DNA from: a virus
Reading direction: 5' to 3' (one strand)
DNA: 64,000 nt
IMG/VR virus record: IMGVR_UViG_3300026521_000527
Span: 1 to 64,000 of that record
The translations under genes and the position numbers were made by a program. Shown piece by piece: positions 14,725 through 61,712 of the stretch. The notes beneath the pieces were generated by a model. That model made no database searches. It worked only from the letters and a program-made list of their open reading frames with translations, and was not told the origin of the DNA. Positions within the stretch are counted from its first letter, which is position 1. Each line of letters opens with the position of its first letter.

Positions 14725-16706
14725 TGCAACCTATTGAAATAAATGCAATCAGTGAGATGAACTCAATGATTCTTGAATTACCAGCGATCAAAGAAGCTTC
14801 TGGAAAAGAAGGATTCGGAAATATTTTAAATTATCTTTTAAAAGATATTTATATTGATACACCAGAAGAGTTATTTCAATACATGAAATACAATCTTAAT
14901 GATAAAATGACAGAAATTTTATTAGCAAACTATGGAATAGATATTAAATATAGTAAAAAAGTAAATAATTCAATTAAAAGGATTCTAGTTTTTTATCTAG
15001 AAAGATTATTTCAATCTAAGGGATCTAATGAAGCTTTTGGTTTATTTGCAGAGATATTTGAAAATTTCTTCAGTAGTATAAATTTTTATAACATCTCAGT
15101 TGATAAAAGTTGGAAGAATTTAACATTTGATGATGATGGAAATCCGACTTATAAAAATGGTGAATTTATATTAAACTATAAGCTTGATCCTATTTTTATC
15201 AACGACGAAGAAAATATTATTCATGAAATTGATGACGATATTAAAATATCTAATAAGTATTTAATGACGCTAAAGCAGTATGAAAATTATTCTTTATTTC
15301 CAATAAATACAAATTTAATTTACATCCAATTCAGTGGTGGAATTGGGGCGATAAATAATATGAAAGTTTTCGCTGATGGTATTAGATCATACGGTGCAAC
15401 ATTTATGCAACAATTTGAATTGGAATATCCGACTTCAATAAATGGAAAAAAAAGTTACTTGAATATAAATTGCAGTCATTTAGAACTGCTTATAAAATAT
15501 TTTCAATTAAAAGAATTGCAACATCGTGGAGAAAATATATTTTTTGAGTACAAGAAACAGTTCTTTACGAACCTTTTATTTGAAATAGAATACATAGATG
15601 CGATTGAAGATGTTCTCCATGAATACAAACAAGCCAATTATAGTAATCGAAATGAGATGCAAAATCTTAAAAGAAAATGGCAGACAATTCTTAGGCATGG
15701 GATGAAGTCTGATGGCACAATCACATCTTTCAGTTCTTTAGAAACTCTTATGAAAGATATGTATAAACCTTTAATAGATGAATTTCTAGAAACTTTGGAT
15801 TCTGATCCTGAAAAAGTTATTGATATTTATATGAAATTATTTACTGAAACAATTACCGCAATAAATACTAGTAATTTATTTGTGCAATTATACACGAATA
15901 CTATTTTTATGCAAGTGTTAACTGGAGATGTTTTTGTAGAAAATTTCTTCCAACCGATTTTTGATATTTTCACAAAATATTTCTTTCCAGTTGAAATGGA
16001 CTATTTGAACAATTTTTTAAATAAAATGCTTATTAAAGATAAATGGAATTCAATTAGCACAGATCATTTCGTAAAAACGACATTAAGTACTAGTGAATTT
16101 AGTCTCGCGACCCCACAACGTGGACTTGATAGATATCAAATATTCTTCTTCTTTGAGAATACAACTATTTTGGATAAAGCCCGAGATAAATTCAATATAT
16201 TTTTAATAAAAAACGCAACAGATATTTTATTAAATTCTGATAAAAATAAAATCAACTTAAATAAAAAAATAAAAACAACTAGAGTTATGTTGGACTCGAA
16301 CTCTTTAAAAATTTATAAAGAGTTAACTGATAAAATTTCATATAATCAGGTTCATGATTTTTATAAAATTATTTTGGAAATTCAAAGAGTTGATTCAATA
16401 GACTTTGAGTTCAGAAGAACTCAAAGTCTAAAAATGTCTCAAAAAAGTAAAATAGGGAAAATCTCAAAACAAATGCTCGGTCTTAATTTAATTAGTCGAT
16501 CTTCAACTAACCAATCTGACATAATACAAACAATAATTATTCAAGGGAATTATAATAACTATTCAATTGTATCAAATTATGATAGATATATGTATGATAT
16601 GTTGGTAAAATATGGTTACCATGAAGAATTTCGACAATTTGAGCTTCAACAAAAATATACTTTTAACAAGTATATGCATTTAACAACAATAGATGATAGA
16701 TTATAA
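14724..16706 (+). CDS. Putative baseplate wedge structural protein
   Basis: 660 residues starting at an ATG overlapping the previous stop, with GAAGGAG upstream. The N-terminal region has the pattern YLERLFQSKGSNEAFGLFAE (residues ~92-111), reminiscent of baseplate proteins of large myoviruses that have a similar ERKGT..A...LF motif. The rest is large, aromatic-rich and helical. A 32-bp inverted repeat (16399-16430) interrupts a C-terminal linker. It lies directly before fibre-type and sheath genes. Function by similarity of pattern and position only. Confidence 0.45.
   Translation: MQPIEINAISEMNSMILELPAIKEASGKEGFGNILNYLLKDIYIDTPEELFQYMKYNLNDKMTEILLANYGIDIKYSKKVNNSIKRILVFYLERLFQSKGSNEAFGLFAEIFENFFSSINFYNISVDKSWKNLTFDDDGNPTYKNGEFILNYKLDPIFINDEENIIHEIDDDIKISNKYLMTLKQYENYSLFPINTNLIYIQFSGGIGAINNMKVFADGIRSYGATFMQQFELEYPTSINGKKSYLNINCSHLELLIKYFQLKELQHRGENIFFEYKKQFFTNLLFEIEYIDAIEDVLHEYKQANYSNRNEMQNLKRKWQTILRHGMKSDGTITSFSSLETLMKDMYKPLIDEFLETLDSDPEKVIDIYMKLFTETITAINTSNLFVQLYTNTIFMQVLTGDVFVENFFQPIFDIFTKYFFPVEMDYLNNFLNKMLIKDKWNSISTDHFVKTTLSTSEFSLATPQRGLDRYQIFFFFENTTILDKARDKFNIFLIKNATDILLNSDKNKINLNKKIKTTRVMLDSNSLKIYKELTDKISYNQVHDFYKIILEIQRVDSIDFEFRRTQSLKMSQKSKIGKISKQMLGLNLISRSSTNQSDIIQTIIIQGNYNNYSIVSNYDRYMYDMLVKYGYHEEFRQFELQQKYTFNKYMHLTTIDDRL
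16399..16430 (+). repeat. Inverted repeat with 14-bp arms inside CDS
   Basis: TAGACTTTGAGTTC, loop AGAA, then the exact complement. It contains the GAGTTC-N4-GAACTC core (16407-16422) and encodes EFRRTQ, a different frame from the copies at 6810 and 10347. Confidence 0.95.
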
Positions 16707-34002: not shown

Positions 34003-36459
34003 ATGCAATCTACATTTAATCAAACTCTTGATAAATATGAAGATATCGTTCGTATAAATATGAAAGTTACGAACCCAACTCTTCTTAAATCGGGGACGCT
34101 TGGAGTTATTACTAACTATATAGCTAATTTAAAATTCGATACTTATCAGTACTATACTAAAATTTTTAAAGAAATGAATATAGGATTGGCTGAGGATTTT
34201 AAAAGTCTTCTTTTCCATAGCACAATATACGATACAGAAATCGAATTGGCGAAGCCAGCGACTTTCGGAGTTAGTTTTATTATACCTGAGATTAACCTCA
34301 GTGAAATTAAGTACTTAAAATACATTATTCCAAAGAATAAAGAATTTACATCAAGAGAAGGAATCCCTTTTATAATCGAAGATGAAATAATTATTGAAAT
34401 AAGTCAGAATAATATTATAGCGTATACTTGGAGTGAGATTAATGGTAAACAGGAATTGACTGTCATTAATACTCAGAATCCCAACTCCCCAGGAACGACA
34501 GTAAATCTAATAAATTATAATAATGTTAGACAGTATCAAAGAACATTTTATAAATTTATAGTCCCAAAATATGATGTCGGGGAGACTTTTAACTTCAGTG
34601 TTACAATTCAAGATTATAAAATGTTTAAGAAATTAAATGCATGGTATAATCCAGATCCAAAAAATAATCCAATTAAATTATTCGAATTGCAAAATCAAAA
34701 CTCAGAAGACATAATGAGTTTATTTGAACTCAAAGATTTTGATATAAAATATTATAATTATGGATCTTCTAGATATGATCTTGACTTATTTTTAGATATC
34801 CAGCCAACTTCATTAAGATTAACGACTGGTAATGGTATTAATGGAATGCTTTTGCAACCAGATTCTGAAATAATAATTGAGAGTCAATTAACGCTAGGTG
34901 AGCAAGGAAATTTACCAAACATGGAATTTCTAGTTGAAGATATAATTATCCAAGAATTCAATCTAGATAATAAAATTCAATCTTACACTGGAAATATTAA
35001 TGGATTATCTATTGCTGGCGGAACTGGTGGTCAGAATATTCAAGATGTTAAAGATATTCGTAGAAATATATTTGATAAAATATCAACACGAAATTCAATT
35101 ATAACCGAAAATGATTATGAGAAATCATTTGCTTATAATGGAGTTGAGCCTTTTGTCGATGCGAAATTTATAGATGCAAAATCATATATATTTTTATTTA
35201 ATGTATTAAAATCGCAAGATATTATTATTGACACAACCTCAATAAATATTCAAGAGTATATTATAGCAAATGATCCGTTCTATCCAAAATACGATTACAA
35301 TGGAAAAGAATTAATATCTCCCTTTTATTTTAAAAGAGTAAATACTAATGAAACTGAGGGATATATTGTCAATCCAGATGTAATATTAACTTTAACTTCT
35401 CCTGCTGGGACACCGAAAGAAACATCAATTGAATATTTAGTAAGCCTAAGTATTCAATATGACTTCAGTGCCAGAAAAACATATATAACCATTAAAGATG
35501 GTGCTAAATCAGGAACTACTTATAATTTTAAAAGTTCTGTGTTCAACTGCACTCTAGACTTTGGTAATAATTATAAATATGAAGTTAATACTAGATACAC
35601 AGATACGTATTGTATTATTAGAGACATCCTTAGAGATGTTCGTCTAGATGTTTATAATGAAGACGGTGCTTTTATTACAACATATTATGCTTTCGGTGAG
35701 TGGACACAATTAATAAAAAAACAGACATTTTTTAAATATTATAAGCATATTCCAGAACTAGAAGGTGTTGATGTTTATACGTCAGATGATGCATATTCGT
35801 ATTTGGATAATGCATTGGCAGATATATTAAACGATATTAATGAATTGGTGGCGGCCACTAAAGACCAAGGAGATGTTCCGTACTTATTAAGAGTTCCGTT
35901 CATAGACATTGAATTTTTTAATAGAACAGACTGGTTGGAATTTTATAGGTTAATTGATAATTTTTTTATGGTGGATTCATTGTATCCTAGAATTTCGTAC
36001 AATACGCGTGTTGCTCAAGCATTTTATAATACAATTGACATACCTGAGGTTTACCAACCGCTAATTTTTAAACAAACGTCTATGGGGGTAATGGATAAAC
36101 CCAAAATGAATGTTGAATTGGGCATAGTGATCGATGAGCAAAATCTTCTTTTATCAAAATTCAATAGTATTTTTGATTTTGAGATAGAAGTAAAATTAGA
36201 CATTGTAAATTATTTAAAAGACTATGAAGGTTTCAAAGTTGAGTTTTTTGAGACTGAACTCGAGACTTTTTTATACGGAAAATATAATTCGATAATTAGA
36301 AATATAGAATTAAAAAGTCCAAAGATGTTTAAAATTAACTCAGCTGATGAAATTTTTGCATTGATTAATGAAAATTTAGACTTAGATCATATGTTAAATT
36401 TCGTACCGAATTATTTTTCATATGATTATAATTCAATTCATATAGATATTACAACTTAG
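34003..36459 (+). CDS. gp6/gpJ-like baseplate wedge protein
   Basis: 818 residues. The diagnostic stretch is NGINGMLLQPDSEI, then LTLGEQGNLPN, an IAGGTGGQNIQDVKDIR segment and STRNSIITENDYEK (about residues 285-373), the pattern of the T4 gp6 / P2 gpJ core that forms the inner baseplate ring. Long N- and C-terminal extensions are aromatic-rich. Ribosome site AAAAAGGA. It follows a tube-like gene and precedes the long fibre gene, as expected in a baseplate cassette. Confidence 0.7.
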   Translation: MQSTFNQTLDKYEDIVRINMKVTNPTLLKSGTLGVITNYIANLKFDTYQYYTKIFKEMNIGLAEDFKSLLFHSTIYDTEIELAKPATFGVSFIIPEINLSEIKYLKYIIPKNKEFTSREGIPFIIEDEIIIEISQNNIIAYTWSEINGKQELTVINTQNPNSPGTTVNLINYNNVRQYQRTFYKFIVPKYDVGETFNFSVTIQDYKMFKKLNAWYNPDPKNNPIKLFELQNQNSEDIMSLFELKDFDIKYYNYGSSRYDLDLFLDIQPTSLRLTTGNGINGMLLQPDSEIIIESQLTLGEQGNLPNMEFLVEDIIIQEFNLDNKIQSYTGNINGLSIAGGTGGQNIQDVKDIRRNIFDKISTRNSIITENDYEKSFAYNGVEPFVDAKFIDAKSYIFLFNVLKSQDIIIDTTSINIQEYIIANDPFYPKYDYNGKELISPFYFKRVNTNETEGYIVNPDVILTLTSPAGTPKETSIEYLVSLSIQYDFSARKTYITIKDGAKSGTTYNFKSSVFNCTLDFGNNYKYEVNTRYTDTYCIIRDILRDVRLDVYNEDGAFITTYYAFGEWTQLIKKQTFFKYYKHIPELEGVDVYTSDDAYSYLDNALADILNDINELVAATKDQGDVPYLLRVPFIDIEFFNRTDWLEFYRLIDNFFMVDSLYPRISYNTRVAQAFYNTIDIPEVYQPLIFKQTSMGVMDKPKMNVELGIVIDEQNLLLSKFNSIFDFEIEVKLDIVNYLKDYEGFKVEFFETELETFLYGKYNSIIRNIELKSPKMFKINSADEIFALINENLDLDHMLNFVPNYFSYDYNSIHIDITT

Positions 36460-47414: not shown

Positions 47415-48722
47415 ATGCAAGACGTAAAAAATAATATTATACAATTAGAAGAAAAACTTCAAAAAGAAATTATTCAGAGAAAACATCTGGTTCAAATTTT
47501 TGAAAATAAATATAATAATTTTGAAAAAGAACTAGAGTATTTTATAGATGATTTAAAAACTGATTTTGAAGGGATTAGATTAAATAAACCACCATCTGAT
47601 ATTAATATAGAATTAACTACCTTTAAATTAAATTTTAGAAAATTACTAAAAGTGGTTAAAAATGACACAAAAGAATCATTAAAAAATTTGGCTGATCAAT
47701 TGAAGTTAAGTCATGAAAATTTAGAAAGTATTTTCAATAAAAAACTTCAACAGGCAATAGAGTCACAAAGAACTCTTTTGACGCAAAAATTTAAAAATAT
47801 AAACAATCAATACTCAACATTAAAAGATTCTTTTAGGTTTATAACAGACACAACATTACCAAATTTTGATAAAAGATTAACATCCAGTATTAATAAAATG
47901 CAGAATAATGTTAATCGTATGCAGAATGAATTAAAATCATTGGACACTAGAGTTCAAAAGAACTCAATTGAGCTTCAAAATAAATTCGATGCAGTTATGA
48001 GTTTCTATAAAAAAGAGAATCAATCTTTTAAAGAAAAAATATCGAGCCTGGAGTTCAAAAGAACTCAAACTCTGGAAAATAAAATAAAAAATCTAGAGAC
48101 TCAATTAAAAGATTTACTTGATTCTTTTAATAAAACAAGTAAATCTCCAGCAAGAAATACCATACAAAAAGATTTAAATGAATTAATAACTTCTCAAAAA
48201 GAAATTCAATTAAATTTGGAAATGGTTGAGTCTAGACTCACTCAAGTGAATAAAAATTCAAAAGAGATTGATAACCTAAAAAAAGAAAATATATCTTTAT
48301 CTGAAATAATTAATTCAACTCAAAATACAATAAACCAACATCAATTAAAAATTACATCAATTATTGAGAGGCATCAATCTATTTTAAATACTCAAGATAC
48401 CATTAATAATTCCATAAATCTCATAAAAAAGACTGCATTGGATACTAGAAAAGAGTTTATTCAAGAATTTGAAGATTTAACTATTGAATTTTTAAAGGCA
48501 CGGGGTATATTTGAAAAACATTCGAGAAAAGCAGACGAAAAAATTATCTACCTGGAGTCAAAAATAACTCAAATTGTATCACAAAAAGATAAAGAAATAA
48601 AAGAAGCAAATAAAAAAATTAAAGCTTTGGAGAATAGTCAAAAAGAACTCAAAGAGCAAAATATTTTATTTGAAAATGAATTAAGAGGAATTAAAGAGAG
48701 TATTGATTTATTATCAATATAG
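47415..48722 (+). CDS. Long coiled-coil protein, unknown
   Basis: 435 residues, almost entirely heptad-like and charged, with Lys/Glu/Asn dominance, so a rod-like fibre or tail-associated protein is likely. Ribosome site CAAGGAG. Contains two GAGTTC-AAAA-GAACTC hairpins (47950-47965, 48051-48066), and related partial copies at about 47759 and 48549. No globular domain or enzyme motif recognised. Confidence 0.45.
   Translation: MQDVKNNIIQLEEKLQKEIIQRKHLVQIFENKYNNFEKELEYFIDDLKTDFEGIRLNKPPSDINIELTTFKLNFRKLLKVVKNDTKESLKNLADQLKLSHENLESIFNKKLQQAIESQRTLLTQKFKNINNQYSTLKDSFRFITDTTLPNFDKRLTSSINKMQNNVNRMQNELKSLDTRVQKNSIELQNKFDAVMSFYKKENQSFKEKISSLEFKRTQTLENKIKNLETQLKDLLDSFNKTSKSPARNTIQKDLNELITSQKEIQLNLEMVESRLTQVNKNSKEIDNLKKENISLSEIINSTQNTINQHQLKITSIIERHQSILNTQDTINNSINLIKKTALDTRKEFIQEFEDLTIEFLKARGIFEKHSRKADEKIIYLESKITQIVSQKDKEIKEANKKIKALENSQKELKEQNILFENELRGIKESIDLLSI
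47950..48066 (+). repeat. Two GAGTTC-AAAA-GAACTC hairpins 101 bp apart
   Basis: Identical 16-bp hairpins at 47950-47965 and 48051-48066. They encode VQKNS and EFKRTQ respectively, i.e. two different reading frames, so the DNA/RNA sequence and not the peptide is conserved. Confidence 0.9.
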
Positions 48723-51468: not shown

Positions 51469-51947
51469 CAATTCTCCTCTGAGTCAAAATGATCCCAAGG
51501 AAATACGACCCATAAATTTTTATTGACCGATTTTCCAAAAATAATATCGGCTTGTGGTTTTTTATTATACGCAGCACACATAATTATATTTTGATTATCA
51601 GTTACTTGATCTTCCAGAAGAGTTCTAATAGACTCAAGTGTATCACCAGTATCATAAATATCATCAACTACAATAATATTCTTAAATTGATTAAAATCAA
51701 GATTGGGTAATTTTATAGACAATTCTCCTTTTTTAGTACCCGAATAGCTTTGAGCAGATACTAAGTCAATATTTCTATTATTAAAAATATAACTTAAAAT
51801 CTGTGCGCTATATAAACCACCTCTAGCGACTGCCAAAATCAAGGTTTCATCCGGGTCACAAATACCATCGTAAGATTCTAAAATTGTATTAGCTATCTTT
51901 TCGGTACTGTCTTCAATTCCTTTATTTGAGATATAATATTTAGTCAT
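51468..51947 (-). CDS. Phosphoribosyltransferase-family protein
   Basis: Start ATG 51947 chosen: GGAGG lies six bases before it and it overlaps the preceding gene's stop. 159 residues, like xanthine/hypoxanthine PRTases. The PRPP-binding motif IIVVDDIYDTGDTLE is at residues 91-105. An earlier LILAVARGGLYSAQI (36-50) is the PP-loop region and VFPWDHFDSE the C-terminal hood. Would transfer a ribose phosphate to a purine-type base (nucleotide salvage). Exact substrate not visible. Confidence 0.8.
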   Translation of the reverse strand: MTKYYISNKGIEDSTEKIANTILESYDGICDPDETLILAVARGGLYSAQILSYIFNNRNIDLVSAQSYSGTKKGELSIKLPNLDFNQFKNIIVVDDIYDTGDTLESIRTLLEDQVTDNQNIIMCAAYNKKPQADIIFGKSVNKNLWVVFPWDHFDSEEN

Positions 51948-52421: not shown

Positions 52422-53222
52422 TTAATTCTTTATATCGTGTTCCCAAACCAACTTAAAGTTTTCTTTATCAATATGTATTTTATTTATCAAATCACTGAGT
52501 TCAATTAAATAATCTTCTATTTTATTTGATTGAGGTCTTGAATTAGATATTAAATAACATTCAAAATACGGATCATCTGAATTTGGAATAATTAAAAATA
52601 TTTTCCAGAGCGCTGATGGAATATTTACCCGAACTTTATTTTTAATAAACTTATCACTTCTCAAGACTCCGGTAACTACATAAATTTTTTTATTAATTAA
52701 GGCGAGTTTTCTTTCGTATTTTTCAAGCTTTGACCACAATCCTCTATTTAAATTCTCTTCTTGTGGGACACATGCGTTTATTACATAAACCTCATCTGCT
52801 GCCTCAATATTTATATCAACACTACTTGATGCCGGCAAATGTCCAGCATCAAAACCATCATAAGAATATTCTTTGTATGATGGTCTATACTCCCTCGGAA
52901 TTCTTTTATCAGTTCTTAGATACTGTCTTTTATATTTCTCAACCAAAATGTCCGCTGAATCTAATGAATAAATCACAAAATCAGGCGTGTTGTAATAATA
53001 ATTATAACACTCCTGATATTTTATATTTATTAAAACTTGATTACAATCGTCTTTTATATAAAATCCAGTTGGTTTATGGGGAGCCAAATAAGACTCAACT
53101 TGATCGGGAACTTTTAAAGTATCTGCCCACCCAAATACAGAATTCAAAAATATTAGCAAAAAAAATAATTTAATCTTGGCTCGAGCCAAGATTAAATTAT
53201 TAAACTTCATGAATTTAAACAT
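52422..53222 (-). CDS. Secreted DNA/RNA non-specific endonuclease (NUC1 family)
   Basis: 266 residues. N-terminal signal peptide (KIKLFFLLIFLNSVFGWA, residues 16-33). Two Cys (60, 72) probably paired. The NUC1 core is GFDAGHLPASSSVDI (123-137; usual D-R-G-H, here D-A-G-H) followed by INACVPQEENLNRGLWSKLE (148-167), the Asn metal-binding helix. The pattern CNQVL ... YQECYNYYY ... IPREYR ... YDGFDAGH is like the Campylobacter prophage DNase family. Expected to degrade nucleic acid in the periplasm or outside. A 38-bp palindrome encodes the residues between the first ATGs and the signal peptide. Confidence 0.75.
   Translation of the reverse strand: MFKFMKFNNLILARAKIKLFFLLIFLNSVFGWADTLKVPDQVESYLAPHKPTGFYIKDDCNQVLINIKYQECYNYYYNTPDFVIYSLDSADILVEKYKRQYLRTDKRIPREYRPSYKEYSYDGFDAGHLPASSSVDINIEAADEVYVINACVPQEENLNRGLWSKLEKYERKLALINKKIYVVTGVLRSDKFIKNKVRVNIPSALWKIFLIIPNSDDPYFECYLISNSRPQSNKIEDYLIELSDLINKIHIDKENFKLVWEHDIKN
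53164..53201 (-). repeat. 38-bp perfect palindrome at 5' end of nuclease CDS
   Basis: Arms of 19 bp (AATTTAATCTTGGCTCGAG region) meeting at CTCGAG, 20 bases after the start codon; it may control translation. Confidence 0.95.
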
Positions 53223-56635: not shown

Positions 56636-57346
56636 CTATAAATAAAATTCATCCGATTCTAAGAAACTAAAATTTTGACTTATTAACACATCGTTATCAA
56701 TATCAATAAATTTTTCTAGAATTCTTTTTCTAAAACCTATTCGATTTGATTTATTATTTAGATTCATAATAATTTTTAGAACCTTTTTTCGACAAGTCTT
56801 TTTTTTTATAGGTTTAAAGTACCCATCATGCAAAAGATTATCAAAAACATGTTTATTAAAAACATGAGTTGTTATGCGCTGCCGATAACCCATATGTTTA
56901 ACCATCCAATCACCTTCAGTCCTAAAATATTCCAATTCGACGTCAAAATATAATGCTTTTGAATTAAATAAACGGTCAATGAACTTCTCTATACTACCAT
57001 TATAGTCATATATCTCGGTGTCATAATATAAATTAAAAAGGTACTTATAAAGTATATCTGCCCTAAAGATTATATTATGATTTTCTAAATCACTTACTGT
57101 TTTAAGTTTATGAATTAATGATACCCCATCCTGATAAGCATCATCAAATTCTTCTAGAGTACTTTCAATTTCTTTAATATCATCTTTTGATATTTTACAA
57201 GTAATTTTATATTTTTTATCAATAAAAAAAATTAGATGTGCTCTTGGCAAATAATTCATTAGTTTATGTTTTTTTATGGTTTCCAATAACCCAAATCTTT
57301 CAGCGACCAGTTCAAATAAATTTACTTTAATTTTCATAAGTTTCAT
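56636..57346 (-). CDS. Unknown protein, 236 residues
   Basis: GGAG six bases before ATG. Mixed alpha/beta, with a basic segment (KPIKKKTCRKKVLKIIMN) at about 180-197. A hairpin (57360-57386) precedes it and a strong terminator follows. It is between the JAB-like gene and the gp47 operon; whether it belongs with the E1/E2/JAB genes is unknown. Not recognised. Confidence 0.35.
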   Translation of the reverse strand: MKLMKIKVNLFELVAERFGLLETIKKHKLMNYLPRAHLIFFIDKKYKITCKISKDDIKEIESTLEEFDDAYQDGVSLIHKLKTVSDLENHNIIFRADILYKYLFNLYYDTEIYDYNGSIEKFIDRLFNSKALYFDVELEYFRTEGDWMVKHMGYRQRITTHVFNKHVFDNLLHDGYFKPIKKKTCRKKVLKIIMNLNNKSNRIGFRKRILEKFIDIDNDVLISQNFSFLESDEFYL

Positions 57347-57394: not shown

Positions 57395-58843
57395 TTAACC
57401 AAAAAGGGAACCCATTACTTTCCCAAGCCCAGTTAAACCATCATTTTCTGATTTTTTTGCATCAACATCAGTTGCATCAGTTGCATCATATATTTCAATA
57501 GAATCTTTGTCACTTGATATCAAACATGAATTTACTTGATTGATATCATAATCAAGTGTTCTCATTACGGATCTGATCTGTGGATCAGTGTAATGTTTAT
57601 ATTTTAACGCTTTAACGAAAGCTGCAGTATCTTCAGGGGTTGCACTTCCATCCACCCCAAATTTTTTAGGATCTAGTCCCAAAATATTCAGTTGTCTTTT
57701 CGCCTGCTGTTCTTTAAAAACAGGTCGTGTTGTTTGTGACAATTGAGTAGATTCATTGATTCCATCATAGATATCATCATAACCATCATAATCATATCCA
57801 GTATATATATTCCCTTTCCCAACACCACCTGAATATCTTGATGTATAATTGTAAGTTCTAGCCTTTATAAGATTCGGATCCATTATAAGGATCGGTTCAT
57901 ACTCACTGACCGTTAAAAATTCACTCAGTACTCTTTGAAGCTGCCCTTTTACAAAATCAACATCTTGTACTGGACAGTGTTTTGATTCCAGAACTCTAAA
58001 GTCAAAAATATTTTTAGCTTCCTCATTAACACCAGATTCATTGGAATCTGGTGTTCTAAAGAACTCATCGTACATTTTGATAACGGGAACATTTTCATCA
58101 ACCTCAGCGTCTTGTACAATAAAAGTCATTGTAGGCATTTCTGTATATGTACCATCAATACCACCATCTTCAAGTAAATTTACATTAACAACTTGTGTTT
58201 CTGTAACAACTATTTTAGTTGGTGTGTTAGTGCTAGGAATATACATAACACTATCTGTTTGTATTTTATCCTCTGCTACAGCGTTTCTAAAGATCACACC
58301 AGGATTCTCTGCTTTATTATCTCTATCAATTGTACTGAATCCAAAATCACCTGGATGTCTATGAATTGAACCCATCTCAAGTTCACGGGCTTCTAGTTCG
58401 AAGCCCCTTTCGATAAACTCTTCTTTTGGAAAAGCCTCTGCAAATTTTGCAACAAGTTGATCAGAAACAGGAATCAGTTGGTTTGAGATCTCACTAACTT
58501 CATCCAATGAAAAACTTACACTTGCTGTTGTAACTTCTTGAGAGAAGTTAAAGAACACAGTAGGTATTGTAAATACCATTCTTTGTCCTGTTTCCTGATG
58601 TTTAAATATCAGCTGAAGTCCTCTATAATGGACTTGATATTCTGCACCACCAGCTGCTGGTAAACCAAGGTCACGAACTTGGTTTAAAAGTTTTTGACTA
58701 TAAAGTACAACATTTAAAGTACTATTGCTTTTTCTTGTACTCGGTGTTTTTTTAACTCCAAAATAACTACCTACTTTTTTACCTATTCCCCATTTAGCCA
58801 TATTTTTTCCTTTATTTTTTTTTGATTTTTTTCTTTTTGCCAT
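57395..58843 (-). CDS. JAB/MPN (JAMM) metalloprotease-like protein
   Basis: 482 residues from ATG 58843 (AGAGGA nine bases before); the ATG at 58801 has a better-spaced AAAGGA and may be the real start. JAMM pattern: Glu in GGAEYQVHYRG (E68), then ELEMGSIHRHPGDFGFSTID (H161, H163, S170, D173), followed by NPGVIFRN. The usual spacing between the second His and Ser is seven, here six. Such enzymes remove ubiquitin-like proteins or cut peptides. The ~280 C-terminal residues are unrecognised. Directly downstream of the E2-like and E1-like genes, as in prokaryotic ubiquitin-like operons. Confidence 0.65.
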   Translation of the reverse strand: MAKRKKSKKNKGKNMAKWGIGKKVGSYFGVKKTPSTRKSNSTLNVVLYSQKLLNQVRDLGLPAAGGAEYQVHYRGLQLIFKHQETGQRMVFTIPTVFFNFSQEVTTASVSFSLDEVSEISNQLIPVSDQLVAKFAEAFPKEEFIERGFELEARELEMGSIHRHPGDFGFSTIDRDNKAENPGVIFRNAVAEDKIQTDSVMYIPSTNTPTKIVVTETQVVNVNLLEDGGIDGTYTEMPTMTFIVQDAEVDENVPVIKMYDEFFRTPDSNESGVNEEAKNIFDFRVLESKHCPVQDVDFVKGQLQRVLSEFLTVSEYEPILIMDPNLIKARTYNYTSRYSGGVGKGNIYTGYDYDGYDDIYDGINESTQLSQTTRPVFKEQQAKRQLNILGLDPKKFGVDGSATPEDTAAFVKALKYKHYTDPQIRSVMRTLDYDINQVNSCLISSDKDSIEIYDATDATDVDAKKSENDGLTGLGKVMGSLFG

Positions 58844-58863
58844 TTTTAGAATTCCTCTTTATA

Positions 58864-59946
58864 TTAATCTGCATCAGATATTTGAGGATTTCTGGCCGCA
58901 CTGTATGCACCCCAAATCTCCGCACTAAATTTTTTACAAGCCATTATATATGGATATGTGCTTTTTTTCCAAAGAATATTACCGTAAAACATACTATTTA
59001 GGTTAACATTAGAAAGAGTCAACCATCCACTTCGTGCAGCTTTATTTTCAGAGCCAGTACAAACACTACCAGCACTTCTCAAATAAGACTCATTAATATT
59101 TCCACTCATCATCGGTGAAATATTATAACCAACCTGGTTATCCTTAGTTGGTTTTTCTATATACACCAATCCATAATATGGCGTACTAACGCCATCTGAT
59201 ATCTTTTGGAGCGGGATTAGAAGAGATTCTGGTTGAATACCACTTTGACTTATTTCTCTTATATTTATTTTAAGATTAACATCGTTCACTGATGAAATCT
59301 GAGGTCGTTCGATCATATTCAACATTTGATCTTTATCAACACTCACAGATCGTTCAATAATAGATGGTGACATTATTATATTTGGTGTCAGTTGCAAAAA
59401 CTTTACCAACTCATTAAAATACTCATCAGTTTTTGATTGAAGTGTTTCTGGTGCAATAGCCTCTTTAAAATAATTAACTCCCTGAATTCCATTACGCCAT
59501 TCATATATATGGAGTTTTCCCGTTTTTGGAAGCTCTATGATATTGGCATTATACATAAATGCAATTAAAGGGTGCAGTGGATTAATATTAAAGCCATCTT
59601 CAGTTGTCAGAAGGCAACCATATACTCCTTCATTTTGAGCAAGCTGTTGCAAAAATACTCCGATATCAATTGCATCCGAATTATATTCGATCGTTGTGAT
59701 CGCATCTTTACATGTCGATCTTATTTTATCCCATGATATTTTCGAATCATCATCCACTAATGAAAAAGATGGTAATGTATCACTAGTTATTGATGGTCTA
59801 ATATTCAACGGGATAAAAATATCTCCTTCTTGATTTAGCATCTGATTTCCCTCTTGCACTTCATCTGAAGTATATTTATTGATTGCATCCTGTGTGGACA
59901 TAATCAAAGAATGTGCTAAAATGGTTGTAGGTTGATTAAATTTCAT
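58864..59946 (-). CDS. PRTRC-B / Prok-E2-like protein (putative)
   Basis: 360 residues with AAGGAG before ATG. Features: an N-terminal beta-rich half, HPLIAFMYNANIIELPK (about 125-141), LHIYEWRNG, and a C-terminal GSVCTGSENKAARSGW (Cys296, Trp308) followed by helices ending in SAEIWGAYSAAR. The Gly-x-Val-Cys-x-Gly ... Trp pattern is like that of the E2-related protein B of PRTRC operons. Cys296 is the candidate conjugating residue. The match is by eye; the position between E1- and JAB-like genes is the main support. Confidence 0.5.
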   Translation of the reverse strand: MKFNQPTTILAHSLIMSTQDAINKYTSDEVQEGNQMLNQEGDIFIPLNIRPSITSDTLPSFSLVDDDSKISWDKIRSTCKDAITTIEYNSDAIDIGVFLQQLAQNEGVYGCLLTTEDGFNINPLHPLIAFMYNANIIELPKTGKLHIYEWRNGIQGVNYFKEAIAPETLQSKTDEYFNELVKFLQLTPNIIMSPSIIERSVSVDKDQMLNMIERPQISSVNDVNLKINIREISQSGIQPESLLIPLQKISDGVSTPYYGLVYIEKPTKDNQVGYNISPMMSGNINESYLRSAGSVCTGSENKAARSGWLTLSNVNLNSMFYGNILWKKSTYPYIMACKKFSAEIWGAYSAARNPQISDAD

Positions 59947-59955
59947 ATTTTCTCC

Positions 59956-60957
59956 TTATCCTAAAATATCCCACTCATCTTGAGTGCTCAGTTCAACAGC
60001 GTCTGGGTTAGCTTCTAAGTACTCAGCCATATTGAAAGTAAATATGTCAGAGTCATGTTCATAATCCTCACCTGTTCTTATCCTATTTGCCTCTTTTTTA
60101 ATCCAAGCAGCTGTTGCAACTTGAAAATTTAAAAGTAATACTGGGATATCGATACTCCCATAAGTTTCATTACCTAACTCGGTATTAACTACCGGCTGAT
60201 ATGTTAAATCAACTGATGTTCCTCCATGCCCAAAGAACATAAAATTCTTATCTTCAAGAAGCTTTCTGGTCTCAAAATCAGGTGCACCAATCATATTGTA
60301 TCCATTTTGAGCAAATAGATCAATTGCTTTTTGATCAACATACTCATTTTTATTCATTGGGCTAATGTCCTCAACCAACCATTTAAGATTTTTGGTGAGC
60401 ACTAATTTATATATACCACCGATCTCATCATCAATATCCCTAACCGTACTAGCACTTGTCTCCATCACAATATCTTCTCCAATTCGTGGGATATTTGTGA
60501 ACTCCAAGAAGTCCGCCTCCCTAACATGCATTCTATGGAAGATGCCTGGCACTTCTAATTTCATGCACCAGTATTGCAAGTTATAGAAGAAGTTAATCAT
60601 TGCACCGCCCATACCGATAGACAATATTTTATATTTGCTATCTTTTATGACTTTTAAATCATCTCTTGTTGGGACAATATCTAAATCTCTTATAATCTTC
60701 CAAAGCAACTTGTTATTGAAATGTCTAGGATATTTTCCATAGTCCTTTTTAATCTTTAAAAATAATCTAGCTTCCAATTTAGCTAAATTTGGATTCATGA
60801 TATTGAATCCAGATATATCCTGGAATGAGAAATTTTGCGGGTTTGCGTAATAATCAATGACAATTTTATTGTCATCAAACGGTAGAATTGAATTCGGTTT
60901 GTATCTCATTCTGAGATTCTCTTGAATCTCATTTTTAAGATTTATATCTGTGCTCAT
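59956..60957 (-). CDS. ThiF/E1-like adenylyltransferase
   Basis: 333 residues with AAAGGA before ATG. Rossmann nucleotide motif YKILSIGMGGAMINFFYNL (109-127, GMGG at 115-118), then VREADFLEFTNIPRIG (145-160; D149, E152, N155, R158), the E1/ThiF D-x-x-E-x-x-N-x-x-R block. Later FGHGGTSVDLTYQP and TYGSIDIPVLLLNFQVATAA match the C-terminal part of ThiF-like proteins in mobile operons. No E1 catalytic Cys is obvious. It would adenylate the C terminus of a small protein modifier. First gene of the E1-E2-JAB operon. Confidence 0.7.
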   Translation of the reverse strand: MSTDINLKNEIQENLRMRYKPNSILPFDDNKIVIDYYANPQNFSFQDISGFNIMNPNLAKLEARLFLKIKKDYGKYPRHFNNKLLWKIIRDLDIVPTRDDLKVIKDSKYKILSIGMGGAMINFFYNLQYWCMKLEVPGIFHRMHVREADFLEFTNIPRIGEDIVMETSASTVRDIDDEIGGIYKLVLTKNLKWLVEDISPMNKNEYVDQKAIDLFAQNGYNMIGAPDFETRKLLEDKNFMFFGHGGTSVDLTYQPVVNTELGNETYGSIDIPVLLLNFQVATAAWIKKEANRIRTGEDYEHDSDIFTFNMAEYLEANPDAVELSTQDEWDILG

Positions 60958-61142: not shown

Positions 61143-61712
61143 TTATAAGCGGATATTTAAGATCCATTTCATTTCTGAAAGACCTTTCAATCCACCTAGA
61201 TTTACTGCACCATAAAGCATATCTAGGACCTTTTTATGACGCAGATTAACTGGCAACATAATCCATTTCTCAAAGGTTTCACGATCATTAAGTTTAAGAT
61301 CGTTATCTTTAAGAACATTCGGCCACAAATCAGTAGCCGAAGTTTTCTCCAAGTCAGTATTGCTTAGAAAATGCAAGTACTTTATACTTGGAAAAAATGG
61401 ATTTTGCTCCTGAAGAACTTCTCTACTATACATGTAGAAACTTATATATTCTTCAGGAGCCAATTTTTTATACACTGGAATAAAGCGTTTAAAGCGATCG
61501 CCAGCTTTAGCTTTAAACGCTTTCGGGAAATGTTTCTTCAGTGTGTAATACTGAAGACCATCTTTCCCGCGATAAATTATCCGAGGTCCTTCTTCGAACT
61601 CTTTATCATATCCCAGGATGACGAATGGTTCCTGCCATCGCTGAACCAGCTTTTTTTTAAGCTGGTAAATATCATCAGCTATGTTCAGGAACCATTCAGG
61701 AATCTTGGCCAA
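61143..61712 (-). CDS. Unknown accessory protein, hairpin-dense gene
   Basis: TTG start at 61712, with AAGGAGG five bases before it. 189 residues, helical, basic and aromatic-rich (YQLKKKLVQRWQEPFVILG). First gene behind the third conserved promoter. Coding DNA is full of inverted repeats (61406-61460 with 12-bp arms; 61482-61523 with 14-bp arms; 61535-61557; 61645-61666), like the genes at 23.4-24.6 kb. Not recognised. Confidence 0.4.
   Translation of the reverse strand: MAKIPEWFLNIADDIYQLKKKLVQRWQEPFVILGYDKEFEEGPRIIYRGKDGLQYYTLKKHFPKAFKAKAGDRFKRFIPVYKKLAPEEYISFYMYSREVLQEQNPFFPSIKYLHFLSNTDLEKTSATDLWPNVLKDNDLKLNDRETFEKWIMLPVNLRHKKVLDMLYGAVNLGGLKGLSEMKWILNIRL

Follow-up and report, generated by a model that had tools for sequence, protein, structure and literature searches.

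A candidate ubiquitin-like conjugation cassette in phages with a possible low-complexity SG-tail modifier

Gene organization of the locus and its relatives

The stretch of DNA analyzed here (the window) is the initial 64 kb of an IMG/VR virus record, G000, that totals 136,864 bp and is labeled T4-like on the basis of gene content alone. Three adjoining genes on the minus strand, separated by 9 and 20 nt, are present at the positions given in the earlier note, and encode an E1-like (ThiF-type) adenylyltransferase of 333 aa (59956..60957), a probable E2-like conjugating enzyme of 360 aa (58864..59946) and a JAB/MPN metalloprotease of 482 aa (57395..58843). We identified the motifs quoted for these proteins, all encoded on the minus strand: in the E1-like protein the GMGG nucleotide-binding loop (residues 115–118; 60604..60615) and the E-x-D-x(5)-N-x-x-R motif (residues 147–158, with E147, D149, N155 and R158; 60484..60519), in the E2-like protein the proposed catalytic Cys296 within VCTGS (59059..59061), and in the JAB protein the JAMM glutamate E68 (58640..58642) and the HxHP...SxxD motif (residues 161–173, with H161, H163, S170 and D173; 58325..58363). 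As key residues of each are invariant across relatives (seven for E1, seven for E2 and eight for JAB), these motifs are not a product of chance.

On one side, the trio borders on genes for an SbcD-like phosphoesterase and an SMC/RecN-like ATPase, and on the opposite side on a type II topoisomerase gene, so that the neighbors named before, an SbcCD-like nuclease and a type II topoisomerase, were rightly identified. This place among recombination and replication genes gives only a hint of the targets and the benefit of the trio. Adjoining the SbcCD-like genes, a minus-strand gene (52422-53222) encodes a protein whose start looks like a signal peptide and whose DAGH motif by eye recalls DNA/RNA non-specific (EndoG-type) nucleases. 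Elsewhere in the record, inspection by eye revealed QueD-, QueE- and QueC-like genes (73528-74136, 85223-86053 and 111215-111931) of the 7-deazaguanine pathway, which might serve to modify DNA or tRNA, and genes like pieces of a multisubunit RNA polymerase (104588-108787 and 129820-131091). A run of tandem paralogous genes at 74339-76148 was not assigned a function.

Single-protein viral scans for relatives found nothing, whereas a search with a JAMM DNA pattern, followed by profile scans, yielded eight further records. Pattern matches at loci L008, L010, L092, L093 and L095 were judged to be chance and rejected. The earlier note had proposed a search for the trio in related phages; the order E1-E2-JAB was found in six other records, one of them ending at a contig edge. 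The trio is complete in the window and in records G003 (42 kb), G004 (281 kb), G005 (272 kb, with one gene between E2 and JAB), G006 (122 kb) and G008 (a contig in a bacterial MAG); G007 (17 kb) encodes E1 and E2 up to the contig end. Records G001 and G002 share synteny with the window around the topoisomerase and SbcD-like genes, and JAB is the only gene of the trio there; neither E1 nor E2 was detected in these two records, both of which are fragments. Their JAB genes (L012 9755-11866 in G001 and L015 9809-11905 in G002) are intact, encode approximately 700 aa and lie in the same neighborhood, which may reflect loss of the partners or a stand-alone role.

By BLASTP, the genes of the trio are the only ones common to G000 and either G003 or G007. 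The cassette therefore appears to move as a unit, the small phages that carry it otherwise sharing nothing detectable with G000. The window trio had no DNA or protein match among annotated phages, in a collection of 50,697 phage records, nor did searches of annotated phages with the E1 and JAB of G003 give any, and 386 genomes from the phylum of G008 contained no further JAB relative. Searches of Pfam, PHROGs, NCBIfam and PADLOC gave no confident match for the trio. A phage-borne E1-E2-JAB cassette was not found in the open-access PMC literature, and neither JAB nor ThiF turned up in a text search of a comparative jumbo-phage overview (PMC7824862).

Features of the E1-like, E2-like and JAB proteins

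The assignment of the first protein to the ThiF/E1 superfamily is supported by profile comparison. Aligned to a profile built from 12 PRTRC-ThiF sequences, which came from plasmids and one phage, it gave an hhalign probability of 88% (E 3e-6, 169 columns), pairing the glycine loop, the E/D-x-D...N-x-x-R motif and the GAPD region. The score of 49.6 was not reached by any of 100 column-shuffled profiles, of which the best scored 22.7. The protein has both the GxGG loop and the acidic-x-D-x(5)-N-x-x-R signature of the superfamily, and G115, G117, G118, D149, N155, R158 and R231 are invariant among the seven relatives. No conserved cysteine is present among them. Against PDB sequence profiles, just a weak match to FtsZ was obtained, at the glycine loop. 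The E1 of G008 (L020 5385-7001) has an extended N-terminus, in which GYEEGY-type repeats match the Yae1_N and FliH profiles; these matches, though strong, were rejected as they are located in the repeat region.

For the second protein, described before as an E2 of PRTRC-B type, the conserved features probably point to an E2, and the resemblance to PRTRC-B does not extend to membership of that family. Cys296 and one upstream asparagine are invariant among the seven relatives, consistent with the conserved catalytic-cysteine loop of E2/UBC enzymes. The best match to the PRTRC-B profile is the active-site loop, placing VCTGS on VCTGN; none of 100 shuffles scored as high, nor did any of 150 in a trimmed test, while the hhalign probability itself is approximately 1–2%, so that the comparison suggests an E2 at the level of the motif. 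The G008 protein carries SPNIKPNSICLGN, which closely resembles a classical E2 PNI...ICL loop. The AlphaFold2 model of the window protein is poor (mean pLDDT 46.7) and its Foldseek matches are meaningless; PDB sequence profiles gave no match.

The third protein was earlier called a JAB/JAMM protease, and both the predicted fold and the conserved residues bear this out. An MPN fold with a metal site, proposed as a check, was recovered: the AlphaFold2 core (residues ~35–245) has a pLDDT of ~85, and the PDB matches listed are MPN/JAB proteins or assemblies holding them (Prp8, Rpn8/Rpn11, Npl4, AMSH, BRCC36 and bacterial BubCD). All five active-site residues (E68, H161, H163, S170 and D173) are invariant among the eight relatives and make up the E...HxHP...SxxD metal site. 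Compared to the usual JAMM spacing, H163–S170 is one residue shorter and E68–H161 is longer. In a viral structure library, a relative with 32% identity was present in Podoviridae sp. ctiuS14. Matches to NADases in PDB sequence profiles were discarded, as they fall outside the JAB core. Following the MPN core, residues ~403–443 form three helices in the model that recall UBA/CUE domains, without Pfam support.

Small proteins with a C-terminal SG as candidate modifiers

The earlier note had remarked that no obvious ubiquitin-like gene lies nearby. This holds within the window, and the remark led to a possible answer: a candidate modifier, not of the beta-grasp type, is encoded ~57 kb away in the same record. 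The neighbors of the trio at 61143-61712 and 56636-57346 were dropped as modifiers, as their conservation extends at most to G004.

The candidates (tags) were first noticed by eye: the small genes just before E1 in G003, G007 and G008 end in KSG plus 0–2 residues. A subsequent search of small ORFs ending in SG or GG plus a few residues gave one such gene per trio record. All seven records thus encode a low-complexity protein of 43–60 aa that ends in [A/S]-[K/E/A]-SG plus 0–3 residues. With a hyphen placed after the SG, the tails read ...SIQGRAKSG-F in G000 (117489-117671 of the record, minus strand, outside the window), ...TVTGKAKSG-TV in G003 (35872-36012), ...HIRGQAKSG-KDL in G004 (276525-276680), ...YSKDAESG-RI in G005 (160814-160984), ...AKGDAASG-FVA in G006 (51599-51763) and ...SVEGKSKSG-C in G007 (14961-15092); the tag of G008 (G008:C10, about 47718-47876) ends at the SG itself (...NIKQNAKSG). 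Order-promoting residues make up 15–29% of the tags, and a Shine-Dalgarno-like sequence precedes each of the seven genes. No SG-tail gene was found in the two records with JAB only, which, these being fragments, is weak evidence.

Four tags are encoded near the trio: in G007, in G003 (with one HNH-like gene between), in G008 (with one gene between) and in G006 (240 bp after JAB). In the three jumbo phages (G000, G004 and G005), they share a different neighborhood, following orthologues of two genes located at 112001 and 112915; the tags of G000 and G005 are directly downstream of a RecJ-like gene. Just before the G000 tag gene lies a run of tandem paralogous genes (113667-117308 of the record) to which no function was assigned.

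In a held-out test, a profile of the 18 C-terminal residues was compared to all 8532 six-frame ORFs. The held-out tag was the top non-training ORF in five of seven cases, with E-values from 8e-5 to 1.5, of which those for G000 (1.5) and G008 (1.0) are weak; the tags of G005 and G006 failed. With a profile of the three tags located before E1, those of G004 and G000 ranked directly behind the training sequences. The strict ending [AS][KEA]SG(x0-3) occurs in 10 ORFs, compared to 1.8 expected by shuffling, and 7 of the 10 are the tags. As the pattern was picked after the sequences had been seen, these statistics are strongly suggestive without being proof.

Relation to known conjugation systems and proposed mechanism

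PRTRC systems (class 6d of Iyer et al., 2006; PMC1779556) resemble the trio in having separate E1, E2 and JAB genes on mobile elements, in the E1 profile and in the E2 loop VCxG[SN]. They differ in encoding proteins C (ubiquitin-like), E, F and a ParB-like protein, which were not recognized among the trio neighbors scanned or read, and in the order F-B-A-ThiF, compared to E1-E2-JAB in the trio. The histidine conserved after the cysteine in the PRTRC E2 class (PMC1779556) is not conserved in the phage E2 proteins. None of the trio proteins matched a PRTRC model over its curated cut-off, the best being the E1 of locus L016 to PRTRC_ThiF (14.1 bits vs 144.75), and JAB has no detectable similarity to PRTRC-A (18 of 100 shuffles score equally well). 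A PRTRC-like F-B-A-ThiF set is present in Burkholderia phage BgVeeders33 (L117; OK665841.1, 27083-30438), its products carrying the annotations hypothetical protein and dinucleotide-utilizing enzyme.

Type II CBASS likewise combines E1, E2 and JAB activities without a beta-grasp modifier, and its Cap2/Cap3 enzymes provide a precedent for a non-beta-grasp protein that is conjugated via a single C-terminal glycine (PMC10449767). It differs from the trio in that Cap2 is an E1-E2 fusion, whereas all relatives encode E1 and E2 as separate ORFs, in that the modifier is the CD-NTase of its own operon, and in being a bacterial defense that is not phage-borne; PADLOC matched no trio protein to Cap2 or Cap3, or to anything else. 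By the features compared, the trio is thus a member of neither PRTRC nor CBASS. Bil/Bub systems also encode E1, E2 and JAB, and BubCD (9ea8, 9eav) is among the fold matches of the JAB protein. They are bacterial defenses as well, and use a beta-grasp ubiquitin-like protein, whereas no such partner was recognized among the trio neighbors scanned. Pup, similar to the candidate tag, is a small disordered protein joined via its C-terminal tail; it ends in GGE or GGQ, however, in contrast to SG plus 0–3 residues, and is ligated by PafA, not by E1 and E2, with no JAB involved.

By analogy, the best reading is that the trio would work in the manner of PRTRC, CBASS Cap2/Cap3 and Bil. We estimate a probability of roughly 55% that it is a phage-borne ubiquitin-like conjugation cassette whose modifier is a separate, tiny low-complexity protein ending in ...[A/S]-x-SG, and not a beta-grasp ubiquitin. 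The most far-reaching proposal, that phages encode a ubiquitin-type E1-E2-JAB cascade with a dedicated stand-alone disordered modifier of ~50 residues, non-beta-grasp and with a C-terminal SG, we hold at only slightly better than even odds. We infer E2 activity, processing, activation and conjugation of the tag, as well as targets and a benefit, along the following lines. The JAB protease would cut off the 0–3 residues beyond the SG, and E1 would adenylate the newly exposed C-terminal glycine. The activated tag would be transferred to Cys296 of E2, probably without an E1 thioester, since E1 lacks a conserved cysteine. E2 would then join it to lysine residues in proteins of the phage or the host, from which JAB could also remove it.

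There is perhaps one chance in a few that the cassette conjugates another modifier, either an unrecognized beta-grasp protein or, as in CBASS, the C-terminal end of some other protein of phage or host, and that the SG genes are unrelated to it. The E1, E2 and JAB assignments each have their own evidence, the tag lies far from the trio in the jumbo phages, two of seven tags fail the held-out test, and testing for a ubiquitin fold covered a minority of the proteins of the record; against this stands the C-terminal motif in all seven trio records, beside or near the trio in four. A role in counter-defense, in which JAB strips host ubiquitin-like or CBASS conjugates and E1 and E2 divert a host modifier, would agree with the two sister records that retain JAB alone with its active site intact. 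We consider this improbable, as seven records retain E1 and E2 with conserved catalytic motifs, plus a tag of their own. ThiF-type enzymes also modify peptides in microcin C7-type pathways, and the tags are short and of low complexity, so that an MccB- or RiPP-like modification might be envisaged, in which the small protein is adenylated at its C-terminus by E1 and the modified peptide is released by JAB, with no conjugation to other proteins. This appears a shade less probable still, as a JAB together with an E2-like protein whose Cys loop is invariant better fits transfer and removal. A divergent yet true PRTRC system taken up by phages, in line with the E1 profile similarity, the E2 loop and the set in the Burkholderia phage, is very improbable and has already failed, as three tested features came out against it; cut-off scores, the E2 histidine, the JAB comparison and gene order all speak against it.

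Bacterial E1-E2-JAB systems are known from plasmids and as anti-phage defenses, and a cassette common to phages that are otherwise unrelated would imply that viruses carry out protein conjugation on their own. What is new here is a candidate SG-tail modifier in every trio record, possibly a new sort of modifier. Whether further proteins lacking the hallmarks of ubiquitin are conjugated, and how these can be found, is a question raised in a commentary on CBASS conjugation (PMC10449767); the SG-tail family provides specific candidates. If the proposed reading is true, a small disordered modifier activated by an E1 would join the beta-grasp proteins and Pup, and viruses would possess a machinery of their own for tagging proteins, with a tag that differs from ubiquitin.
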